Shown here in pieces: positions 1-15,937 of a stretch of DNA of 56,649 bases. The notes beneath the pieces are model-generated. The model was not told the origin of the DNA. It saw nothing but the letters and a program-made list of their open reading frames with translations, and did no database searches. The DNA lies in assembly GCA_913775525.1 (NCBI GenBank), contig CAJYLH010000019.1, positions 1 through 56,649 on the forward strand. The letters run 5' to 3'. Origin of the DNA: an uncultured Chryseobacterium sp. Its GTDB lineage: Bacteria; Bacteroidota; Bacteroidia; Flavobacteriales; Weeksellaceae. Position 1 is the first letter of the stretch. Each line of letters opens with the position of its first letter. Position numbers and translations under genes: made by a program.

Positions 1-510
1 GCCACACAACAGCCTTGCGAGGTGGTGAAGCGGTTGGCTATCAGGGTAGGAAAAAACGCAAGACGACCAATGCTATATATCTGACTGATAGAAACGGTTT
101 GCCCTTAGCCATGTCAGTACCTGTTTGTGGAAATCATAACGATCTTTTTACTATTGAAAAGCATTTTGAGCACAGGTTTTTTACATCAATCAGGCATTCC
201 ATTGGATGGTCTTTTCCTGAATTTTGATGCAGGATTTGATGCTGAAAATTTACGTAAGAAAGCGTTGGAGTTGGGAATAATAGCCAATATTGCTCCTAAT
301 AAAAGAAACTCAGATACGCTTAACAATCATTATTTTGATCATCAATTATACAAAGAACGATATGCTATCGAAAGAACAAATGCATGGCTGGATAGCTTCA
401 GATCAATACTTAACAGGTTTGACACCTCAATAACAAGCTGGACAGGGTTTAATTATTTAGCATACATTCTGATTGCTTTGAGAAAGTTTCAAAAAATAAA
501 GTCGAGATGA
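1..510 (+). pseudogene. IS5-like transposase, 5' end off the window, frameshifted
   Basis: This is the C-terminal two thirds of a DDE transposase. The reading frame enters at the left edge with HTTALRGGEAVGYQGRKK, the stretch that follows the first catalytic Asp in IS5-type enzymes. It continues to a second Asp block (NFDAGFD) and the terminal YKERYAIERTNAW block that carries the catalytic Glu. The frame breaks near base 172. The copy at the right end of the window has five more bases there (GATCA) and reads through as EQITDFLHQSG. A 5-nt deletion plus one A-to-G change therefore inactivated this copy. The family assignment rests on motif resemblance. Confidence 0.85.
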
Positions 511-517
511 GTTCAAT
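1..517 (+). mobile_element. IS5-like insertion sequence, left copy (partial)
   Basis: The copy matches the right-end copy (56255-56649, opposite strand) up to base 517 and then diverges, so base 517 approximates one element end. The last bases GTTCAAT (511-517) are followed by AG and then ATTGAAC, giving a 16-nt dyad across the junction. The other element end lies outside the window, so terminal repeats and target duplication cannot be checked. Confidence 0.75.
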
Positions 518-882
518 AGATTGAACCTGTTTAAAATTATTTAAGAAAGAGTTTTCCAGAAAATTAGCAATTTACATTTGCAAAAAAAGAACTAAAATCC
601 GGAACTCATACAAAAAGATAAACTGGAAAAATGGATTCACCCTTTTTAAGTAAAGGCAAATTAGGATTTTCCACGAGATTTAATTTAGGCAAAATCTTTA
701 AATTCATTATAAAACGATTGAAAAACAGAAAAAAAATAATAAATAATTGTTAAAAAACCTAATTTTGTAAAAAAATATAGTACATGAATATTTATCATTA
801 CATATTTCATATTCTTTGTCGACAGTAACTATTAAATCAACTTGTGGTAACATAAATTTTCATTTACAATTTCAGATAAAAC
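518..882. other. AT-rich intergenic region, no gene seen
   Basis: This stretch between the IS end and the TPR/LuxR gene is very AT-rich and has no open frame with coding character. A TAATTTTG string at 760-767 fits the Bacteroidetes -7 box (TAnnTTTG), but no properly spaced -33 box accompanies it. Confidence 0.5.
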
Positions 883-2316
883 ATGACATTTATAATTTTT
901 TTTAAGAAATTACTCTTTCTTTTTTTTGTTATCAATATAATCTTTATTCAAGCCCAAAAAATTACTGTAAAAGAAATTGATACTTTGCAAATGAAAGCAA
1001 GTAAAGTAAGATGGAATATGGGGGATTATAAAAAAGCGCTAACGCTTCAAAAAGAAATTATTATTAAATCAAAAAAAATAAATTACAAAAAAGGAGAAAT
1101 TAGAGGTTATCTAGAATTTTCACAGACTTGCTATGGGATGAATATGCTGAAGCAATGTTATTATTTCTTGAATATAGCTAAAAAACTATTGAAAAATTTT
1201 GATGATAATTCTTTAAAATCACATTTATATCTTATTTATGGAATGTATAATTATAAACTTCAAGGACATACACAAGCCTTAATAAATTTTAATAAATCGT
1301 TGTATTTCGCTTCCCGAATTGAGGATAAAAAACTAGCTGAAAGACGTAAGCAAAACGTATATGATTGGAAAAGATCAAGTTTTGAATTTCTTAATCAGAT
1401 GGATTCTGTATATAGTTATGAAAGAAAATGTATGGTTTCACCAAAACCCATGCTATTTATAACAATTGCAAATAGGCATTTAGAAAAAGGAAGAGTTGAC
1501 TCTGCGGAATACTTCATTGATATGGCTAACAATTTAGTCAAATCTGTTAATGCTCCTATGGAAGGAAAATGCAATGTTTTAAAAGCTTATGGAAGATTAT
1601 ATATCTTAAGAAAGCAATACGAAAAATCTTTACAGTATCTTTTTGAAGCTCTTAAAATAAGTAAAAAAATGCATCTTAAGAATAGGGAGAGAGAAGTTTA
1701 TAAACTGATTTATGAAGCATATAGAGGTCAGAATAATATAGAAAAGGAAAACGAATATCTTTTTAAGTACTCGTCACTTAATGATAGTTTGAATGAGATT
1801 GAGAAGAAAGTCATAAATCTTCCAATAGAAGATTTTTTTAAAGAAGAAGCTCATAATCTGAAAGAAAGGAAGAAAAAATTATACTATTTTATAGTATTCA
1901 TTATTCCTTTGTCTATGTCATTAGTATTTGTTTTAAAAAGAAATTCGAAAAACAGAAAAGAAAAGACAAAAAGTATTCTAAACGAAAAAGAACAAGAGTT
2001 AAATTTTTTAAAGCAAAAGGTTGATGAAAATAGACAATATGTACTTTATCTTGCAACTAAGAACGACCCCACATTTATCATAAAATTCAAGGATGTTTAT
2101 AGTGATTTTTATGAAAAAATGTTATCGGAATATCCCCAGCTTAATATTAATGACATGAAATTCATTGCGCTTATTAAATTACTTTTTTCTAATAAGGAAA
2201 TTGCTACCTACACAAATGTTTCTATAAGAACAGTAGAATCTAAAAAGTATAGAATCAGAAAAAAATTAAATTTAGATGCTAATATAGATTTTAATGAATG
2301 GATAATTAATAAGTAA
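883..2316 (+). CDS. TPR-repeat membrane protein with C-terminal LuxR-type HTH
   Basis: This 477-residue protein has the layout of a flavobacterial membrane-anchored transcription regulator. It starts with a hydrophobic signal-like segment (residues 5-24, ending near IQAQ). About 270 residues of tetratricopeptide-like helices follow (for example DYKKALTLQKEI). One transmembrane helix lies near 333-351 (LYYFIVFIIPLSMSLVFVL), then a coiled coil. The C-terminal HTH (about 420-477) contains NKEIATYTNVSIRTVESKKY, which matches the LuxR recognition-helix pattern. The periplasmic TPRs probably sense a partner and the cytosolic HTH acts on DNA. The gene is AT-rich and stands alone. Its ligand and targets are not visible. 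Confidence 0.8.
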   Translation: MTFIIFFKKLLFLFFVINIIFIQAQKITVKEIDTLQMKASKVRWNMGDYKKALTLQKEIIIKSKKINYKKGEIRGYLEFSQTCYGMNMLKQCYYFLNIAKKLLKNFDDNSLKSHLYLIYGMYNYKLQGHTQALINFNKSLYFASRIEDKKLAERRKQNVYDWKRSSFEFLNQMDSVYSYERKCMVSPKPMLFITIANRHLEKGRVDSAEYFIDMANNLVKSVNAPMEGKCNVLKAYGRLYILRKQYEKSLQYLFEALKISKKMHLKNREREVYKLIYEAYRGQNNIEKENEYLFKYSSLNDSLNEIEKKVINLPIEDFFKEEAHNLKERKKKLYYFIVFIIPLSMSLVFVLKRNSKNRKEKTKSILNEKEQELNFLKQKVDENRQYVLYLATKNDPTFIIKFKDVYSDFYEKMLSEYPQLNINDMKFIALIKLLFSNKEIATYTNVSIRTVESKKYRIRKKLNLDANIDFNEWIINK

Positions 2317-2617
2317 ATACTTGTGATAGTCAAAACCTAATTTGCTGTGACAACCATATTTTTAGGTAATGATATACTTAAGTGTCCCGACAGTATCCTT
2401 ATCTTAAATTATGAATTTTAGTATTAATCAAAAAATGAACTAGCTTTATCAGAGGCACTTAATACTTTGCATGATCGGCTTTGGCTTAGAAAGCATTTCT
2501 TTGGTACATTACAGTATTTTATTTTCAAAACATTACCTAAAATCTGAGTGAAAAAGGAAATTATTATTACAATGTTGTAGCGGAATTGAAACAGAACTTC
2601 ACCGGAAATTTAACTAA

Positions 2618-2698
2618 TATAGAATACGTGATGAATACTTTAAATTACACTTTGATAACCTTAGAGCATTAAAAGCTATTGTAGAAATCTATAATTGA
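2618..2698 (+). pseudogene. Possible remnant of an IS3-type transposase
   Basis: The short frame reads YRIRDEYFKLHFDNLRALKA followed by IVEIYN and a stop. It resembles the C-terminal part of IS3/IS150-type integrase-core transposases, where a KDE-(x)n-FxNLxxAKxAIxxxIxxYN pattern precedes the end. Stops lie immediately upstream and the usual RPHxSL motif is missing. The rest of 2317-2735 is AT-rich without an intact gene. Chance resemblance is possible. Confidence 0.35.
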
Positions 2699-2735
2699 CA
2701 TTTCTTTCATCATCCTTAGATAACTACAAACCAAA

Positions 2736-2759
2736 AAATCCCGGCCACAGCCGGGATTT
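2736..2759 (-). terminator. Rho-independent terminator of the DUF2911 gene
   Basis: A perfect 10-bp stem (AAATCCCGGC / GCCGGGATTT) with a 4-nt loop is followed on the minus strand by a run of six T. It lies 18 bases past the stop of the DUF2911 gene. Confidence 0.85.
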
Positions 2760-2776
2760 AACTTTTAAAATTTAAA

Positions 2777-3295
2777 TTACTTAATCTCCACCGGAACGGA
2801 GATTTTATCCCAATCCATGGTGAAGCCGTTGTTGTTGATTTTGTAGACCAAAGCTTCCTGGGTGGTTGGTAAAGCCTTAGTTTTTACGTCTACGCGTAGA
2901 GCGTCTTTGGACTGTTCGTACTTGTAGGCGCCCCATTGTTTGGCTTCCTTGTTGAAGATGGCGGTCCAGGTTCCGCTGGCTTTAGGGATCAGGAAAAAGC
3001 TGTATTTCCCGGCCGGCAGTTTTTTGCCCTGAACGGTGATGTCTTTATCCGTTTCGAACGTGGTGGCTTCATTGGCACCAGCACGCCATACTTTATCATA
3101 GGCTTCCAGGCCGCCCCAGATGGTACGTCCTTTTACGGATGGGCTGCTGTAGTTGATGGTGATGTTGGCATCTTTGATTTTCCCCGTCGCCGTCATCGGT
3201 GGACTGGCCGGTTTCTTGGTTTCCTGTGCAAAGGCATTGACAGAGATCGTCATCGCCGCAACAAGAACGGTCGCTGATTTTAAGATGGATTTCAT
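2777..3295 (-). CDS. DUF2911 family secreted protein
   Basis: This 172-residue protein has a clear Sec signal peptide (residues 1-23, ending AFA before Q24). The mature part carries the DUF2911 hallmarks: a [12 protein letters not shown] block (51-62), then [11 protein letters not shown] (68-78) and [12 protein letters not shown] (93-104). DUF2911 proteins are common exported proteins of Bacteroidetes with no established function. The length is typical for a single-domain member. A strong terminator follows the stop and no gene is close upstream, so it is probably monocistronic. Confidence 0.85.
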
Positions 3296-7933: not shown

Positions 7934-8054
7934 TTGAATTTGCTTTGCGGGGCAAATATAAGTAAATCATCTTTCTTTCAGCCTTAAAAGAATAAGACGC
8001 TGAATTTTACAAAAAAGCTATTATTTTTTTTGAACTAACAAGGCAAAAAAGATT

Positions 8055-8233: not shown

Positions 8234-8280
8234 GTTGTATTGAAAATCAAAGATTTTCTGCATACGTGAACTTAAAATTA

Positions 8281-8445
8281 ACGCAAAGTTTATTGATTAT
8301 TCTGCTTTATTATAAGTGGGCAAAGAGAGGCGACCTTGTCGCTGATGAAGCGTATGCTTTATCCATACGCTTTGGCGAATCAACGGAGTTGATGCTGTAC
8401 TTTGCCCTCTTACAATCAACAGGTTTATAAAATAAATCTTTGCGT
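8281..8445. repeat. Nested inverted-repeat (MITE-like) hairpin element
   Basis: The ends are inverted (ACGCAAAG-TTTATT at 8281-8294, and AATAAATCTTTGCGT at 8431-8445). A second arm pair lies inside (TAAGTGGGCAAAG at 8313-8325 against CTTTGCCCTCTTA at 8400-8412). The core has a perfect 9-bp arm pair (AAGCGTATG at 8348-8356 and CATACGCTT at 8364-8372). The whole can fold into one long hairpin. A related element is at 26650-26790. No protein is encoded. Confidence 0.7.
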
Positions 8446-8497
8446 CAGAAAACTATATGACTACTTGTACACTCTCTTCCCAATCTTTTATGGACGT

Positions 8498-9052
8498 TTA
8501 AATTTCGGATCCTGAATGGCTTTCCGCCCTGTTCTTTTCTTTCCTCCGCTGAAGAATAAGGTGTGCGGCATCCAGCATTTTAACCGTATGGATGTAAGGC
8601 ATGACAATATTGCTTTCCGGCAGGTTTTTAAAGGCGCCCATCGAGAAATAAATGATTCCGGACATAAAATAATCAAATTCCTTAATGCCGTATTCGCTGA
8701 ATGCCTTTTTGAACACCAGCAGAGGGTTCCGGTATTCCTTCTCCGAAAGCAGGCCCAGGACCGATGGCGCAATCTTTTCCGGCCGGGTATCGACCGTCCA
8801 TTTCCTCTCCTTCTGCATCACGAGATGTCCTGCCCGGATCAGCAGCCTCATCGACTGGTGAAACTGAAAGATCACCGCAGGATCTTCGCGGATCCAGCTA
8901 TGGTTCCTGACGGCATACTTCATAATCTTGCTGAGCATTTCTTTGGAAGCATCCAGCGCATTGAACTGAAAAAAATGTTCCATCAGCTGCACCCCGAAGC
9001 CTTTCCCGTTGGTCCAGAACCGGTCCTCGAAATCTGTCTTTGTATTTTTCAT
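8498..9052 (-). CDS. Hypothetical protein, 184 residues
   Basis: The family is not recognised. The protein is predicted soluble and mostly helical, without signal peptide or membrane segment, and has a basic C-terminal tail (QRRKEKNRAESHSGS). Its hydrophobic pattern (for example AVIFQFHQSMRLLIRAGHLV) looks like a real folded protein. GC content matches the housekeeping-like genes rather than the AT-rich island to its right. It is transcribed divergently from the small XRE-like gene at 9146. The ATG at 9052 was kept because it is the first one and no stronger internal start stands out. Confidence 0.6.
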   Translation of the reverse strand: MKNTKTDFEDRFWTNGKGFGVQLMEHFFQFNALDASKEMLSKIMKYAVRNHSWIREDPAVIFQFHQSMRLLIRAGHLVMQKERKWTVDTRPEKIAPSVLGLLSEKEYRNPLLVFKKAFSEYGIKEFDYFMSGIIYFSMGAFKNLPESNIVMPYIHTVKMLDAAHLILQRRKEKNRAESHSGSEI

Positions 9053-9145: not shown

Positions 9146-9367
9146 ATGACAGAAGCAAATAGAAAAATTGTTGAATTTATAAGGGATGAATGGGTTATCC
9201 CTATGAACAATAACAGCAAATTTGCAGTAGAACATAATATAGATGAAAAGACCGTTAGGAGAATAAAAGACGATGATGATTATCAGATTGCCCTTCTTAC
9301 AATAATGCGAATCTGCCATGCTAAAAATTTAACTCTTGCCAGCTTTTTTAAAATGGTTGGAATATAG
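9146..9367 (+). CDS. Small XRE-type HTH regulator, 73 residues
   Basis: The ATG at 9146 (MTEANRKIVEFIRDEW) gives a 73-residue protein. The longer open frame running upstream overlaps the minus-strand gene and has no coding look there. The centre FAVEHNIDEKTVRRIKDDDD followed by YQIALLTIMRICHAKNLTLASFFKMVGI matches the HTH pattern of small flavobacterial XRE regulators (helix-turn-helix, then a helix ending LxxFF). It sits at the left border of an AT-rich island and 570 bases before the nuclease-NTPase gene, so it may regulate itself, that gene, or the divergent gene at 8498. Confidence 0.7.
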   Translation: MTEANRKIVEFIRDEWVIPMNNNSKFAVEHNIDEKTVRRIKDDDDYQIALLTIMRICHAKNLTLASFFKMVGI

Positions 9368-9939: not shown

Positions 9940-12579
9940 ATGAACTATGATATTGATGAAAAATTGTTAGGTTCCGAGAGTGATGTCGAACAAAAAGTTA
10001 TCTACCCATTATTAACAAATTCTTTTCCAATTGGTTTAGAGTTTACTCCAAATGAAATAAATACAAAATTATTCTTAAAAAAAATTAATATAGACAAAGG
10101 TGCAAAAGCGCATAATTATTATCCGGATTATGTAATTATATCCCAGGGGGTGCCATCGTTAATTATAGAAGCAAAGAAAGTTGGGCAAGATTTAAATGAA
10201 GCCTTTAGAGAAGCGAGATTATATGCTACTGAAATAAATTCAATGCATATTGAAGAAGTAAATCCTTGCAAATTTATTATTGCATGTGATGGAAAAAAAT
10301 TACTCGCTGGATATTGGAACTCTCAACCTTTATTTGAAATTGAAACTTCATCTTGGAATGAAGTTAATAATGATTTTAGCAGGTTTATAGAACTTTTTAA
10401 TCATTCAGCTATTAAAAGCCATTCAAAAGAAGTTAATGATATTCTACGTAAAAATACTGTCTTTACTAAGCCATTATTTCAGCTGGGGGGAAAATATTTA
10501 ATTGATCAAGAAATTAATAATTCATTTGGAGAAAATATTGCGATTCAATATAAACATATTTTTAATCCTGAAATGGAAGGAGAAAAAATTGATTTAGTTA
10601 AAAATGCCTATGTAGTTGTTGATAAACATGAATCACATATTAATCCAATTGATCGTTTAATAAGAAAAAAATTAAATCCATTTGCGACAGATGCAACTTT
10701 AGTGCAGAATACAGAAAGTCCAACTGAAATTATTGAGAAATTAAAAACTATTAATTCATTTAATAATCAAGTTCTTTTATTGATCGGCAGTGTCGGTTCT
10801 GGAAAATCTACATTCACTACATATTTAAGGGAGGTTGCATTAGATGAAAATTTATCACAATCGTTGGTATGGATTACTATTGACTTAAATAATGCACCAG
10901 TTAGTTCTGAAGAAATTTACAGATGGCTAAAAAAACATATTTTAGAAAACCTGAGATCGACTTTTAAAAAAATTGATTTTGATTCACTTGAAATCATTAA
11001 AGAAGTCTTTGAGGAAGATATAAATAAATTTGAAAAATTAGGAGGACTATTAGGGAAAGGTTCAGAAAAGTATAATGAAGAACTCTATAAAATTTTGCAA
11101 GATTGCATTGCTAATACTGAAAAATTCATAAATGGAATTATCGAAAATTTTATTTTGAAAAATAATAAAAATTTGATTATAGTTTTGGATAATTGCGATA
11201 AAAGAACATTACAAGAACAACTATTAATGTTTGAAGTAGCAAACTGGATTAAAGACAGTATTAATTGTATAGTCTTTCTTCCACTACGAGACACTACATA
11301 TGACCATTTTAAAAATGAGAAACCTTTAGATACTGTTGTTAAAGATCTAACCTTTAGAATAATTCCTGCATCGCTTGAGAAGATTCTATATTCAAGAATA
11401 AAATACGCAACAAGGCTCAATGAAAAGCTGCAAACTGGTCACTATTTTTTAGATAACGGAATGAAAGTATTTTATCCTAAAAGTGAAGAAATATATTATT
11501 TAAGAAGTATATTAAAGTCTCTCTTTCAAAATAACTTTTTTAAAAAGACAATGATTGCGCTTGCTGGAAGTGATATACGAATAGGAATAGAAATTTTCTT
11601 AGATTTCTGTAAAAGTGGTCATATTAGTGATTCTGAAATCTTTAAAATAAAACAAAGTGGAGGCAATCATGAATTACCAAACCATTTAATTAGCCGTATT
11701 TTTTTAAGAGGTAAAAAAGTTTATTACAAAGACGAGAATTCAAGATTGAGAAATCTGTTTAACTCTGATCCTGCAGACAGAATTCCTAATCCGTTTTGCA
11801 GAATTGTTATATTAAGATGGCTAAAAGATAAATACAGAGAGAAGGGTCCAACTGGCATATTAGGGTTTCATTCAGTTAATGATATGAATAAAGAATTAGC
11901 CAGAATTGGCTTTGACAAAAAAAATATTTTTTATGAATTAAAATTCTTAATACGACAAAAACTCATTATTAGTGAAACACAAGATGTTAATAATATTGAT
12001 AATGATGATCTAATTTCGATAACAACATCAGGGAGAATCCATTTGGAAATGATTTATAATGTAGATTACATAAGTTCATGTAGTGAAGATTCCTGGTTTA
12101 ATAATAATGATATTAGCTTAAAAATTAGAAGTAATATGTTGAGTAGAAATCAATATGCACATTTATCAAGACTTAATACCTTGGAAAATGCTGAAGAATT
12201 TTCAATCTATCTTAGCAATTACTTTGACCAGTATTTTAAAAAATATTCTGATATTTTCAACACTAGATATTCAAAACCTATTGATTACCAAAGAATAGCC
12301 GACTTAATTGATAATTCAAAATTTAAAGAGCAAACTAATGGTAATCTTTTATTAGAAAATGGATCAATAAAAATTGGAACTATTAACAATATTGAGACTT
12401 ATGGATTATTTATTAATTTGCCTGACTCAAAATATGTAGGTTTTATTGAAAGTTATAAATTAAAAGGTTATAATAAACTCAATTTCGACATCGGAGAAAA
12501 AATTTCTGTTCAAATTATTAAATTTAATACTTCTCACAATAAATATGAATTAGAATTATATGATGAATCTAAAACATGA
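9940..12579 (+). CDS. PD-(D/E)xK nuclease-like / P-loop NTPase / S1-domain fusion, candidate defence protein
   Basis: This 879-residue, very AT-rich gene encodes three parts. Residues 1-165 resemble the HsdR N-terminal restriction-nuclease fold: YPDYVI (61-66, D63), then LIIEAKK (74-80, E77 and K79), the PD-(D/E)xK active-site spacing. Residues 275-620 are a STAND/KAP-like P-loop NTPase with Walker A GSVGSGKST (283-291) and Walker B LIIVLD (412-417, D417). A winged-helix-like region follows (NPFCRIVILRWLKDKY onward). Residues 808-873 read as an S1 RNA-binding domain (KIGTINNIETYGLFINL). No TPR sensor repeats are seen, unlike Avs proteins. A defence role is inferred from the nuclease-NTPase pairing and island setting; the S1 domain suggests RNA or ribosome sensing. 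Confidence 0.75.
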   Translation: MNYDIDEKLLGSESDVEQKVIYPLLTNSFPIGLEFTPNEINTKLFLKKINIDKGAKAHNYYPDYVIISQGVPSLIIEAKKVGQDLNEAFREARLYATEINSMHIEEVNPCKFIIACDGKKLLAGYWNSQPLFEIETSSWNEVNNDFSRFIELFNHSAIKSHSKEVNDILRKNTVFTKPLFQLGGKYLIDQEINNSFGENIAIQYKHIFNPEMEGEKIDLVKNAYVVVDKHESHINPIDRLIRKKLNPFATDATLVQNTESPTEIIEKLKTINSFNNQVLLLIGSVGSGKSTFTTYLREVALDENLSQSLVWITIDLNNAPVSSEEIYRWLKKHILENLRSTFKKIDFDSLEIIKEVFEEDINKFEKLGGLLGKGSEKYNEELYKILQDCIANTEKFINGIIENFILKNNKNLIIVLDNCDKRTLQEQLLMFEVANWIKDSINCIVFLPLRDTTYDHFKNEKPLDTVVKDLTFRIIPASLEKILYSRIKYATRLNEKLQTGHYFLDNGMKVFYPKSEEIYYLRSILKSLFQNNFFKKTMIALAGSDIRIGIEIFLDFCKSGHISDSEIFKIKQSGGNHELPNHLISRIFLRGKKVYYKDENSRLRNLFNSDPADRIPNPFCRIVILRWLKDKYREKGPTGILGFHSVNDMNKELARIGFDKKNIFYELKFLIRQKLIISETQDVNNIDNDDLISITTSGRIHLEMIYNVDYISSCSEDSWFNNNDISLKIRSNMLSRNQYAHLSRLNTLENAEEFSIYLSNYFDQYFKKYSDIFNTRYSKPIDYQRIADLIDNSKFKEQTNGNLLLENGSIKIGTINNIETYGLFINLPDSKYVGFIESYKLKGYNKLNFDIGEKISVQIIKFNTSHNKYELELYDESKT

Positions 12580-13195: not shown

Positions 13196-13354
13196 CTACT
13201 TATTCTTCTTAATTAAATCACGAGTAAGATAGATGTAATTAAACATACAAAATATTGCAATTGCCCCGAAAATATGCCATAAATTCGTCCCGAAACCAAA
13301 CCCTCACCATTTGCCGCCGATGACCCATTCTAATCCAAAGAAAAGATATTGCGC
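13196..13354 (-). pseudogene. C-terminal remnant of a small membrane protein
   Basis: The minus-strand frame reads AQYLFFGLEWVIGGKW, a TGA where a Trp codon would fit, then GFGFGTNLWHIFGAIAIF and CMFNYIYLTRDLIKKNK before a TAG stop. Two hydrophobic helices and a basic tail look like the end of a real membrane protein. It has an internal stop and no start, and its left end overlaps the final codons of the next gene. It may have been cut when the AT-rich island arrived. The family is not identified. Confidence 0.45.
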
Positions 13355-14160
13355 TTCATCCTGATGTTGAACTTTTCATTAAACACTGCTGGATTAAAAT
13401 GAATGCTTTCGTACTCACGTTGAACGGTTTTTTTAGCTTCTGCCAGGCTTTGCCTGTTTTCCCAGATGGCTATGGTCATTATGGTGAACCTGTCTGATTG
13501 GTCAGTATTGATGATCACTTCATCTTTTACAAAACCTTTTAATTTCTGGATCAGTTTTCTGTTGTAGTCTAATTTACTTTTAAATTCTTCGTAGGATTTT
13601 GCAGGGACTTCAAATTCGTCAACAAAATAAACCCAATCTTTTTTTGCTGTATATTTAGAGATAAAGTCGGTGGGGATTATGCCTAATTGTGTAAAAAAAG
13701 AGAGCTTGTCGGGTATGGCTTTGCTATTGATAATTTTACTATTTTCAAATTCATAGATGCTGACTCCCTGTACGGTTACTTTTTTATGGGTAGCCGGTAT
13801 CTTCTGATATTCGCCCAGATGGCTTCCTTCCCAATCGTATATGGTAACCACATTATTACCGTCTTCAAAGATCTCTTTAATGGTAAACCGGATGTCCGGA
13901 AAGGCAGATAACAAGGGTTGGTTCATGTTCTTAAAGGTCTCCAGATAGCTGAGATCAATATATTGTTCAAGAGCTCCGGTGTGTTTCTGGTTTAAATAGG
14001 TTTGATACATTCCTGTAACCACCTCTTTGTTGGAAATAGTAGCCATAGCGTTATGGGTTGGGGTTTTGATCTGGGAATACAACGTTTTTGCAGCTGTGAT
14101 GCATAGCAGGAGGATCAGGAAATTGATGTGCTTATGTATCATGATGTGCTTTTGTTTCAT
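13330..14160 (-). CDS. Secreted SnoaL-like / antibiotic-monooxygenase-like fusion protein
   Basis: This 276-residue protein has an N-terminal signal segment (about 11-30, LILLLCITAAKTLYSQ). An NTF2/SnoaL-like domain follows (about 40-160: VVTGMYQTYLNQ, then LLSAFPDIRFTIKEIFEDGN and TIYDWEGSHLGEY), as in predicted ester cyclases. The C-terminal third (about 175-270) resembles an ABM dimeric alpha-beta barrel (DWVYFVDEFEVPAKSYEEF, then FTIMTIAIWENRQSLAEAK). The enzymatic role is unknown. It lies 86 bases downstream of an AraC-type regulator on the same strand, so it may be its target. The last residues overlap a gene remnant, so the C-terminus could be altered. Confidence 0.6.
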   Translation of the reverse strand: MKQKHIMIHKHINFLILLLCITAAKTLYSQIKTPTHNAMATISNKEVVTGMYQTYLNQKHTGALEQYIDLSYLETFKNMNQPLLSAFPDIRFTIKEIFEDGNNVVTIYDWEGSHLGEYQKIPATHKKVTVQGVSIYEFENSKIINSKAIPDKLSFFTQLGIIPTDFISKYTAKKDWVYFVDEFEVPAKSYEEFKSKLDYNRKLIQKLKGFVKDEVIINTDQSDRFTIMTIAIWENRQSLAEAKKTVQREYESIHFNPAVFNEKFNIRMKRNIFSLD

Positions 14161-14246
14161 ACATCCTTTTTAAGGGGAGATCAGCGAATCGTATTTTGAT
14201 GCAAATTGACCATTTCAGATAAAAAAAGCGTGGACGTAACGTTCCA

Positions 14247-15134
14247 TTACCCGGACACATCGTGCATGAGTTTTGAACGGTATTGTTGGGGAGAAATGCC
14301 TATTATTTTTTTAAACAACCTGCCGAAATAAGAAGGATCGTTAAAGTTGAGTTGGTACGCTATGTCTGATACAGACAGGGAAAAATCCTGCAAATACTTT
14401 TGGGATTGGGTAATGATGAACTCCTGCATGCACTGTCTGGCAGATTTGTTCCAGACGTTCTGAATGCAGCGGTTCAAATAATTGGATGAAATATTGAGCA
14501 TACGGGCATAATCGCTGATGCTGTACTGCTCCAGATGGTTTTTATACAACAATTCCCTGAAAGAAATGGCAATATCAAACTGCCTTGATAATCCTTTTTT
14601 TGATTCCGAAGATGTAAGCAGCTTTATGAGCAGCGCCTGAAAAAGACAGGTGATGATCTGTTCATCCGGCATCGGTGTTTTCAGTTCCTGAACGAGCAGG
14701 CGGCCCATATGTTCGATAAAGCTACTGTCATCATGGCTGAGCCGGATGATGGGCGCTGCGGTAAACAGTTTGATACAATAAGGGTACGCTTTGGTCTGCT
14801 GTACAATCTGATCGTTAAAGGTGATATAATATCCTCGTACATCCGGAGACTGACGCAATAATGACGTGACTTCCCCCTGCAGGACCAGCAAAGCCTGATG
14901 GGCAGATACTTTCTTGATTTCATTTCCCACCTGCTGTTCAAAGTTCCCGTTGGTAGCAAACACAATGAAATTGAAATCAGCTTTCAGCAGCGGTGTGGGC
15001 GTAACCAGATTTTTTACCGATAGATCATCCATATCATAGATCTGGACAGGCGTTTGCAGGTACCGGAACTCATCGGGGAAATTCCGGATATAGGCTTTTG
15101 TGAATTCTTTAAATGTGATGCTGGTATTTTCCAC
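14247..15134 (-). CDS. AraC family transcriptional regulator
   Basis: This 295-residue protein ends in a two-HTH AraC/XylS DNA-binding domain (about 190-290). The first HTH is SISDYARMLNISSNYLNRCI. The second is SVSDIAYQLNFNDPSYFGRL, followed by FKKIIGISPQQYR, which matches the AraC signature. The N-terminal ~160 residues are a cupin-like sensing domain. The start MENTSITFKEFTKAY is supported by family length (about 290). It reads toward the SnoaL/monooxygenase-like gene, its probable target. The ligand is not evident. Confidence 0.9.
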   Translation of the reverse strand: MENTSITFKEFTKAYIRNFPDEFRYLQTPVQIYDMDDLSVKNLVTPTPLLKADFNFIVFATNGNFEQQVGNEIKKVSAHQALLVLQGEVTSLLRQSPDVRGYYITFNDQIVQQTKAYPYCIKLFTAAPIIRLSHDDSSFIEHMGRLLVQELKTPMPDEQIITCLFQALLIKLLTSSESKKGLSRQFDIAISFRELLYKNHLEQYSISDYARMLNISSNYLNRCIQNVWNKSARQCMQEFIITQSQKYLQDFSLSVSDIAYQLNFNDPSYFGRLFKKIIGISPQQYRSKLMHDVSG

Positions 15135-15260
15135 GCTATTGTTTACCTGTAATTAAACCCTGTTCCTGATGAGTTTCAATACTAAAATCCCGCAGTGAAC
15201 TCCCGGTTTTCTTCCGTAGGTAACGGGTTCATCGGCATAGCCCTTTGCTAGTTGCTTACG

Positions 15261-15367: not shown

Positions 15368-15937
15368 TTAGTAGTCGTAATATTTATTTAACCAGTTCCG
15401 GAATTCTTCATCATAGGTCTCCTGAGCGTTTTTGACAATCTCATCCGGATTTTCTGTGGTTTCGATACCATATTTTTCTAAAACCCATTTTTTGTATTCC
15501 TCCGTTTTCTCAGTGGGCTCATACTCATCTTCATCCTTATAATAATAGATGTCGTCCCAGCCGATAGCGGGTTCCACATCAAAGGTTAAAATCTGCAACA
15601 GTTCCCGGATGTTTTTGGCGATGATATGAATCCCGCCTTCGCTTCCAAAGGCCAGAACCGGGGCCTCGCTTAAATTTTTATGGTTGTTCCGTACCCAGAA
15701 CGCATACGTTGAGCCGCTGCCGTCTGCCATGGCAAATTCTATGATGGAACCTGTAAATTCTTCATCATCCGAATATCCGCTTATCCCGCTTTTATCCGAA
15801 TAATCCCGGCCGATATAAAACTGGTCTGCAAAATTTTCATCATCGGCAATGGAGTTCTGGAACTTCACCAGTTCCGTTAATTCTTCCGGGATCTCAAAAT
15901 TTTTGAAGTTCGCTTCAAATGCACTTATATTAACCAT
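15368..15937 (-). CDS. SMI1/KNR4 (SUKH)-like protein, possible orphan immunity protein
   Basis: This 189-residue acidic protein resembles the SUKH superfamily. It has IPEELTELVKFQN at 17-29 (the IPxxxxxLlxxxNG-type start), FAMADGSGSTYAFWV in the middle, and a hydrophobic strand PVLAFGSEGGIHIIAKNIRE. The Asp/Glu/Tyr-rich C-terminus ends WLNKYYDY. SUKH proteins are widespread immunity proteins against secreted or contact-dependent nuclease and deaminase toxins. No toxin gene lies next to it here, so it is an orphan if the call is right. Confidence 0.55.
   Translation of the reverse strand: MVNISAFEANFKNFEIPEELTELVKFQNSIADDENFADQFYIGRDYSDKSGISGYSDDEEFTGSIIEFAMADGSGSTYAFWVRNNHKNLSEAPVLAFGSEGGIHIIAKNIRELLQILTFDVEPAIGWDDIYYYKDEDEYEPTEKTEEYKKWVLEKYGIETTENPDEIVKNAQETYDEEFRNWLNKYYDY

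Follow-up and report, generated by a model that had tools for sequence, protein, structure and literature searches.

A single gene in the window (the whole stretch of DNA analysed here, 56,649 nucleotides of contig CAJYLH010000019.1 from an uncultured Chryseobacterium sp.) encodes a protein in which an HsdR-type nuclease, a STAND/AAA+-like NTPase with a winged helix, and an S1 domain follow one another in one chain. This architecture is real, widespread and apparently undescribed, with nuclease, NTPase and tail kept as one polypeptide across several phyla. Since numerous relatives are carried by prophages, in positions known to harbour anti-phage genes, the protein is probably an undescribed phage-defence protein and may sense RNA. 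What computation shows is the order of the domains, the invariance of the active-site residues, the variety of tail modules among relatives, and the prophage-hotspot location of many of them. Judged from sequence, a defence role for the nuclease-NTPase protein is very likely, while the chances are evenly balanced for the whole model, i.e. a one-gene anti-phage or anti-mobile-element effector whose RNA-engaging tail licenses the nuclease. The features of the gene are as follows.

9940..12579, + strand: whole gene, 879 amino acids, HsdR-type nuclease, STAND/AAA+-like NTPase, winged helix and S1
9940..10434, + strand: PD-(D/E)xK nuclease domain of the HsdR_N type, residues 1-165
9976-9978, + strand: helix glutamate E13 of the nuclease domain
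10126-10128, 10168-10170 and 10174-10176, + strand: codons of the nuclease-site residues D63, E77 and K79, respectively
10750..12099, + strand: P-loop NTPase core, helical domain (R486 and R547 invariant) and winged helix, residues 271-720
10786..10812, + strand: Walker A, residues 283-291, GSVGSGKST, read directly from the sequence
11188..11199, + strand: end of Walker B, D417-N418-C-D420, with D, N and D invariant in 71/71 rows
12349..12570, + strand: S1-type OB fold, the exchangeable C-terminal module, residues 804-877

The sequence-only reading of this DNA had described a nuclease, a P-loop NTPase and an S1 domain in one protein, and that observation is borne out by the HSDR_N match, the folds, the Walker motifs and the S1 OB fold. 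Fold comparison places a PD-(D/E)xK restriction-nuclease fold with D-x(13)-E-x-K in residues 1-165, where that reading had suggested looking for one, and the nearest nuclease folds are those of HsdR and type IIG enzymes, whose nucleases cut DNA. Pfam HSDR_N matches residues 52-121 (33.9 bits, cut-off 25.1) as well as all 38 members of alignment A3 (E 0.01). In a remote branch carrying cold-shock domains (see below), this model exceeded its cut-off in one of the four proteins that include the N-terminus, the Acinetobacter protein L125, and not in L007, L122 or L123. Behind the nuclease, Walker A, Walker B and a ring-NTPase fold with a winged helix are all present, as in STAND/AAA+ proteins; the nearest NTPase folds are RdrA, BrxC, CED-4 and ORC, with Z differences of less than 1 and no winner among them. 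Pfam AAA_22 falls below its cut-off, as does BrxC_BrxD (16.1 bits vs 22.2). The nuclease residues E13, D63, E77 and K79 and the NTPase residues G283, G286, G288, K289, D417, N418, D420, Q427, R486 and R547 are invariant in 71/71 aligned proteins, an invariance that speaks for intact copies, since the alignment holds only open reading frames (ORFs) longer than 700 amino acids and leaves out 11 truncated, broken, unresolved or duplicate rows.

The gene occurs once in its own 4.1-Mb genome and lies in AT-rich DNA, GC content being 22-28% at 9-13 kb of the window and 37-50% over most of the remainder. Flanks matching window positions 7968 and 13217 are 0.9 kb apart in genome G013, vs 5.25 kb in the window, a spacing that would fit an insertion at the gene's locus; the right anchor is a short match (100 bases, 75% identity) and the comparison is therefore partial. 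When the right flank (13300-15140) was compared with 60 genomes of the genus, it returned its own match and one weak match of 79 bases. Near the gene lies a divergent pair, a 184-amino-acid gene (8498-9052, - strand) whose protein has no Pfam match and a 73-amino-acid HTH-like ORF (9146-9367, + strand). The pair is found again within the genus (e.g. G006, G015, G016 and G047), the small HTH ORF being matched in 34 of 60 genus genomes with its own counted, and it looks like a small mobile or duplicated module. The HTH gene, which the sequence-only reading had mentioned as a small XRE gene next to the nuclease gene, was considered as part of the system and rejected: the pair recurs in genus genomes that lack the nuclease-NTPase gene and is thus a separate module.

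Several other features of the window are recorded here in their own right. A stretch of about 170 bases beside a PIG-L gene (8280-8452) belongs to an intergenic repeat family, and is repeated in tandem with a spacing of about 238 bases on contig 1 of G007, near 4311768-4313367 and 4297356-4298383. The gene at 15368-15937 (- strand) has a weak SMI1/KNR4 (SUKH-1) match below the Pfam cut-off; proteins of this type are often immunity proteins against polymorphic toxins. The left end of the window forms a second low-GC patch, made up of a transposase remnant (127-510, DDE_Tnp_1 below cut-off) followed by an AT-rich gene (883-2316) whose TPR-like product has a sigma-70 region 4/LuxR-type HTH.

Relatives of the protein are spread thinly but widely. 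Searches of plasmid records gave 19 matches, with full-length relatives of about 40% identity in Paraburkholderia and Desulfocapsa; genome contigs yielded 20 loci, including, by record title, Pseudomonadota, Aminicenantes, Delongbacteria, Gastranaerophilales and Clostridia; and viral contigs yielded 24 loci, plus 17 further distant ones with a broader alignment. Phage GenBank records gave no match to either the window protein or the P2-type protein of L045. From the genus and order to which the window belongs, 98 other genomes were searched and one was positive, G008, with a distant (24%) and tail-less protein. Core-profile searches made genome by genome, leaving out the genome searched from, found 5/394 genomes in the window's phylum (four are core matches that lack a tail, and the fifth covers the nuclease part alone), 3/397 in the phylum of G489 (all tail-less), and 2/397 in the phylum of G487 (one with an S1-type tail, L120). 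The family is thus sporadic, often mobile and not housekeeping; a housekeeping role, which the sequence-only reading had proposed to check through the loci of homologues, was rejected on this rarity in the sampled genomes.

The prophage positions carry most of the case for defence. Twenty-three of the 24 viral-contig loci are labelled S1 and one (L049) is tail-less, and 16 of the 24 lie either at the A-Q locus of P2-like prophages (11) or beside a CI-type repressor (5). At the P2 locus the gene is flanked by the gpA-type replication nickase on one side and portal Q/terminase P on the other; eight copies (L040, L041, L042, L044, L045, L046, L048 and L052) have both A and Q, two (L039 and L047) have Q only, their contigs beginning at the gene, and L043 has A only, its contig ending before Q. 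PHROG names (phrog_91, phrog_68 and terminase) were obtained for L045 and carried to the other P2 copies by similarity. An 82-amino-acid ORF upstream in some P2 copies belongs to phrog_698, a phage family of unknown function. The five copies of the other group (L031-L034 and L036, with PHROG names assigned at L031 and L034) lie 56-492 bases downstream of the CI-type repressor on the same strand, with a short ORF in between at L033, a place that we take to resemble the position of rex in lambda. For the rest, an integrase is nearby in L049 and L050 and a DNA primase in L038, and no context was assigned to L035, L037, L051, L053 and L054. Tail-less kin of 814-826 amino acids are also found at the P2 site, at L103 and L104 (with A and Q) and L113 (with Q), while at L105, beside Q, no whole ORF was found; by the tree, these members of a remote branch appear to have reached the site as a separate arrival. 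In phage P2 itself the A-Q locus is home to old and tin, and it has been published as a hotspot from which several systems gave protection against phages (PMC9122126).

Escherichia coli carries the gene at the same place. A search of 5426 complete E. coli genomes with the L045 gene found homologues in 109 of them, at 80-90% DNA identity (83.1% among the matches listed). When the E. coli gene was the query, all 109 copies were at least 99% identical to it, so that they form one recently spread lineage. All seven E. coli loci examined have the gene in a P2-like prophage, flanked by the replication endonuclease on one side and the portal gene on the other; the adjoining terminase gene is annotated as incomplete in each, and the prophage may therefore be defective. 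WP_001678413.1, the intact E. coli protein, has as its sole annotation an HsdR N-terminal domain protein, in FCI55 the annotation splits the gene in two and calls one piece an S1 RNA-binding protein, and the core sequence of the IMG/VR member L043 is identical to the E. coli protein. Directly downstream in E. coli N169 (L055:11751-13595) is a gene for a KAP-type P-loop NTPase (WP_023147874.1, Pfam KAP_NTPase); a P-loop NTPase gene occupies the same place in L126-L131, its counterpart in L043 is phrog_4740, of unknown function, and it is possibly a second accessory defence gene of the P2 hotspot. The number of prophage placements should be read with their ancestry in mind: the P2 group and the CI group each form one clade on the core tree and the E. 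coli copies, all 109, share at least 99% identity, and the placements therefore represent few independent events.

Genes flanking the non-viral copies add less. When up to six ORFs per side, called by a simple script rather than a gene finder, were clustered, all clusters present in at least four loci came from P2-type prophages, and the idea of a conserved partner gene was dropped; the single-gene character proposed at the outset is supported. A PADLOC tally of 119 flanking proteins from 18 non-viral loci (best 25 of 141 families; twenty proteins scanned singly) gave at least one clear known defence gene and at least one possible one. The clear case is found at L020, where a prokaryotic Argonaute gene (64-3084; PADLOC pAgo, also SIR2-PNTD class I models) immediately precedes the Clostridia copy on the same strand, and the possible case a GajB-like UvrD-type helicase 2.4 kb from the Rhizobium copy L021, where the GajB and RTasHel hits are one protein. 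SspA, DndA and RtcR appear as single hits among the families listed for the 119 proteins. A kinase at L016, called PD-T4-6 by PADLOC, looks like a general kinase and was not counted as a defence neighbour. On the SC52 plasmid, a type I HsdR gene and an N-6 methylase gene lie within 10 kb of the cold-shock copy. The proposal of a new defence system thus stands as the most likely role on the strength of the 16 of 24 viral-contig homologues at the two prophage positions, but it finds few known defence neighbours; support comes mainly from prophage positions and less from classical defence islands.

A maintenance function for phage or plasmid, or a part in host RNA processing, with residence on mobile elements being incidental, would account for the plasmid copies L004 and L005 near replication and partition genes, and non-defence genes such as partition genes are also described at the P2 A-Q locus in the part of PMC9122126 used here. 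Against this, the distribution is sporadic (1/98, 5/394, 3/397 and 2/397 genomes), the nuclease site is invariant, and copies occur in both CI-linked and P2-type prophages, and we regard such a role as very unlikely.

We turn to the C-terminal tail, which varies among relatives of the same core. Residues 804-874 of the window protein are matched by S1-type NCBIfam models at E ∼0.005, well short of the cut-offs of these models, and the C-terminus has an S1 OB fold. Pfam S1 matches 26 of the 38 A3 members (E 0.01) and 34 carry the S1 label, so that eight of the labelled proteins, the window protein among them, miss the Pfam model; the S1 labels of tree rows rest on the aligned tail. A histidine at position 837, found in 21/40 S1 tails, is absent from the window protein; this and the missed Pfam model weigh against the RNA-triggered model set out below. 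Mean pairwise identity is 45% in the nuclease, 50% in the NTPase and 29% in the S1 part. Such lower conservation is what one may expect of a sensor, but it may instead reflect weak constraint, since the preceding stretch (720-800) is lower still at 24%.

A quick tree of the core with the tail left out (71 rows, SH-aLRT, midpoint root) places 41 rows in one fully supported clade, comprising 40 S1-labelled tails and one RRM. The latter, from Aminicenantes (L016), has its RRM at the tail position of S1 (Pfam RRM_1, E 2.3e-8); the 40 S1 rows without it have a support of 53, and the RRM may have replaced an S1 domain or split off earlier. Four rows sister to this clade have no tail. On the remote branch, a Rhodobacteraceae protein (SC52) ends in two cold-shock domains, a layout that recurs in plasmid relatives; Pfam CSD was found in four of the five proteins of this branch scanned (SC52, Phaeobacter M633, the Rhizobium CIAT894 piece and Acinetobacter) and not in the Pseudoalteromonas protein. 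Single-sequence scans of the viral contigs with P0001, the cold-shock member P0005 and the RRM member L016 returned no close relatives, and the RRM layout consequently rests on one protein. S1 and cold-shock domains are OB folds and RRM is a different fold, and all bind single-stranded RNA or nucleic acid. These different modules at one position are the best evidence that the job of the tail is nucleic-acid binding, and we consider it likely that the tail is a nucleic-acid sensor or anchor.

The sequence-only reading had suggested that the protein could sense phage RNA or stalled ribosomes and then cut DNA; RNA binding as the trigger of DNA cleavage has, in our estimate, slightly less than an even chance. 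S1 and RRM typically bind RNA, but S1, cold-shock and RRM domains can also bind single-stranded DNA or ribosomes, which counts against an RNA trigger. The main rival keeps the defence role and makes the tail (S1, RRM or CSD) a tether to ribosomes, mRNA or the complex of RNA polymerase and transcript, the signal itself being a phage protein that the NTPase and helical region recognize in the manner of STAND sensors. It is consistent with the STAND/CED-4-like fold with its winged helix and with the tail-less kin, which share the nuclease and NTPase residues and, at L103, L104 and L113, the P2 hotspot; since they keep these residues, the core can work without an RNA module. However, only about 80 mostly helical residues lie between the core and the S1 domain, whereas STAND proteins usually sense through large repeats at the C-terminus, which leaves this alternative somewhat unlikely. 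In a second alternative, restriction-like surveillance of DNA, the OB or RRM domain would bind intermediates of replication or injection at their single-stranded DNA or R-loops, and cleavage there would fall to the HsdR-type nuclease, with no role for RNA. HsdR and type IIG nucleases do cut DNA, and carriage on plasmids and prophages would suit such a function, but S1 and RRM are typically RNA binders, the nine neighbouring window proteins scanned with Pfam include no methyltransferase or specificity partner, and the families shared by at least four loci are all from P2-type prophages. CSD-like OB folds, for which RNA is typical, could bind single-stranded DNA according to part of the CoCoNuT literature (PMC11090510), and with both sides considered we find DNA surveillance quite unlikely.

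Under the preferred RNA-triggered model, the gene is carried by prophages, plasmids and small chromosomal inserts, and its NTPase core would probably form a ring or other multimer, as RdrA and other STAND/ORC-type NTPases do, that keeps the HsdR-type nuclease silent. The C-terminal single-strand nucleic-acid binder would engage RNA, most likely phage transcripts or transcript-bearing complexes; this engagement would lead to an ATP-dependent rearrangement that licenses the nuclease, and the freed nuclease would then cut DNA, either that of the phage or also that of the host (abortive). We offer more tentatively, as a possibility with the balance somewhat against it, that the relatives form a widespread, undescribed family of RNA-licensed DNA nucleases with a fixed nuclease-NTPase chassis and exchangeable RNA sensors (S1, RRM and tandem cold-shock). 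The single-chain nuclease-NTPase proteins known in defence sense mainly phage proteins or DNA; if true, an RNA-licensed family would recognize invading transcription instead, and temperate phages would carry it to exclude rivals. With a core that stays fixed and an RNA-binding module that varies, such a one-gene family would allow RNA sensing in bacterial innate immunity to be tested directly, as three natural types of tail module and tail-less controls already exist in nature, and the copies in P2-like prophages make a test feasible in E. coli with standard phages.

Compared with known systems by its domains and its nine scanned neighbours, the window protein is not a component of type I restriction-modification, RADAR, Avs or BREX, and PADLOC gave no full-length match for it, the best matches of A3 members being weak (e.g. 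mad3, PtuA and AriA). Searches of article text in the open literature found no published description of a protein joining HsdR_N, NTPase and S1/RRM/CSD. By Pfam HSDR_N and fold, the HsdR of type I enzymes (EcoR124I HsdR; 3h1t) and the type IIG enzymes DrdV, BpuSI and BsaXI have the same kind of PD-(D/E)xK domain, but the window protein has a STAND/AAA+-like NTPase behind it, and neither it nor any of the nine neighbouring window proteins scanned matched a Pfam model of an SF2 helicase motor, methyltransferase or specificity domain. RdrA of RADAR, a heptameric AAA+ ATPase, is one of the four nearest NTPase folds, which differ by less than 1 in Z; the window protein carries a nuclease in the same chain, and no RdrB deaminase was found among those nine neighbours. 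Avs proteins combine an N-terminal PD-(D/E)xK nuclease, a STAND-type NTPase and TPR. The likeness to Avs drawn in the sequence-only reading therefore holds for the general nuclease and NTPase plan but not for the C-terminus, where the window family has S1, RRM or CSD in place of TPR repeats; the window protein shows neither a TPR-type sensor at its C-terminus nor a PADLOC match to Avs, and its NTPase is nearest to RdrA, BrxC, CED-4 and ORC. As for BREX, the window protein does not reach the Pfam cut-off for BrxC/BrxD (as given above). BREX-related DUF499 ATPases have winged helices and a C-terminal RRM that is proposed to bind foreign nucleic acid, but they belong to multi-gene systems and a fused nuclease is undescribed in the part of the source drawn on (PMC12839542), whereas here a single gene carries the nuclease fused. 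S1-like and cold-shock domains are listed, in the portion of another survey used here, among the RNA-binding parts of other NTP-dependent conflict systems (PMC7159879). Neither McrB nor McrC families are listed for the window protein by Pfam or PADLOC, and yet the CoCoNuTs, McrBC-derived type IV systems with predicted RNA targeting, are similar in idea, as they combine NTPase, nuclease and cold-shock/OB RNA-binding modules (PMC11090510, in part); theirs is an McrB GTPase with coiled coils spread over several genes, while the window protein brings an HsdR-type nuclease, its NTPase and its tail together in one.
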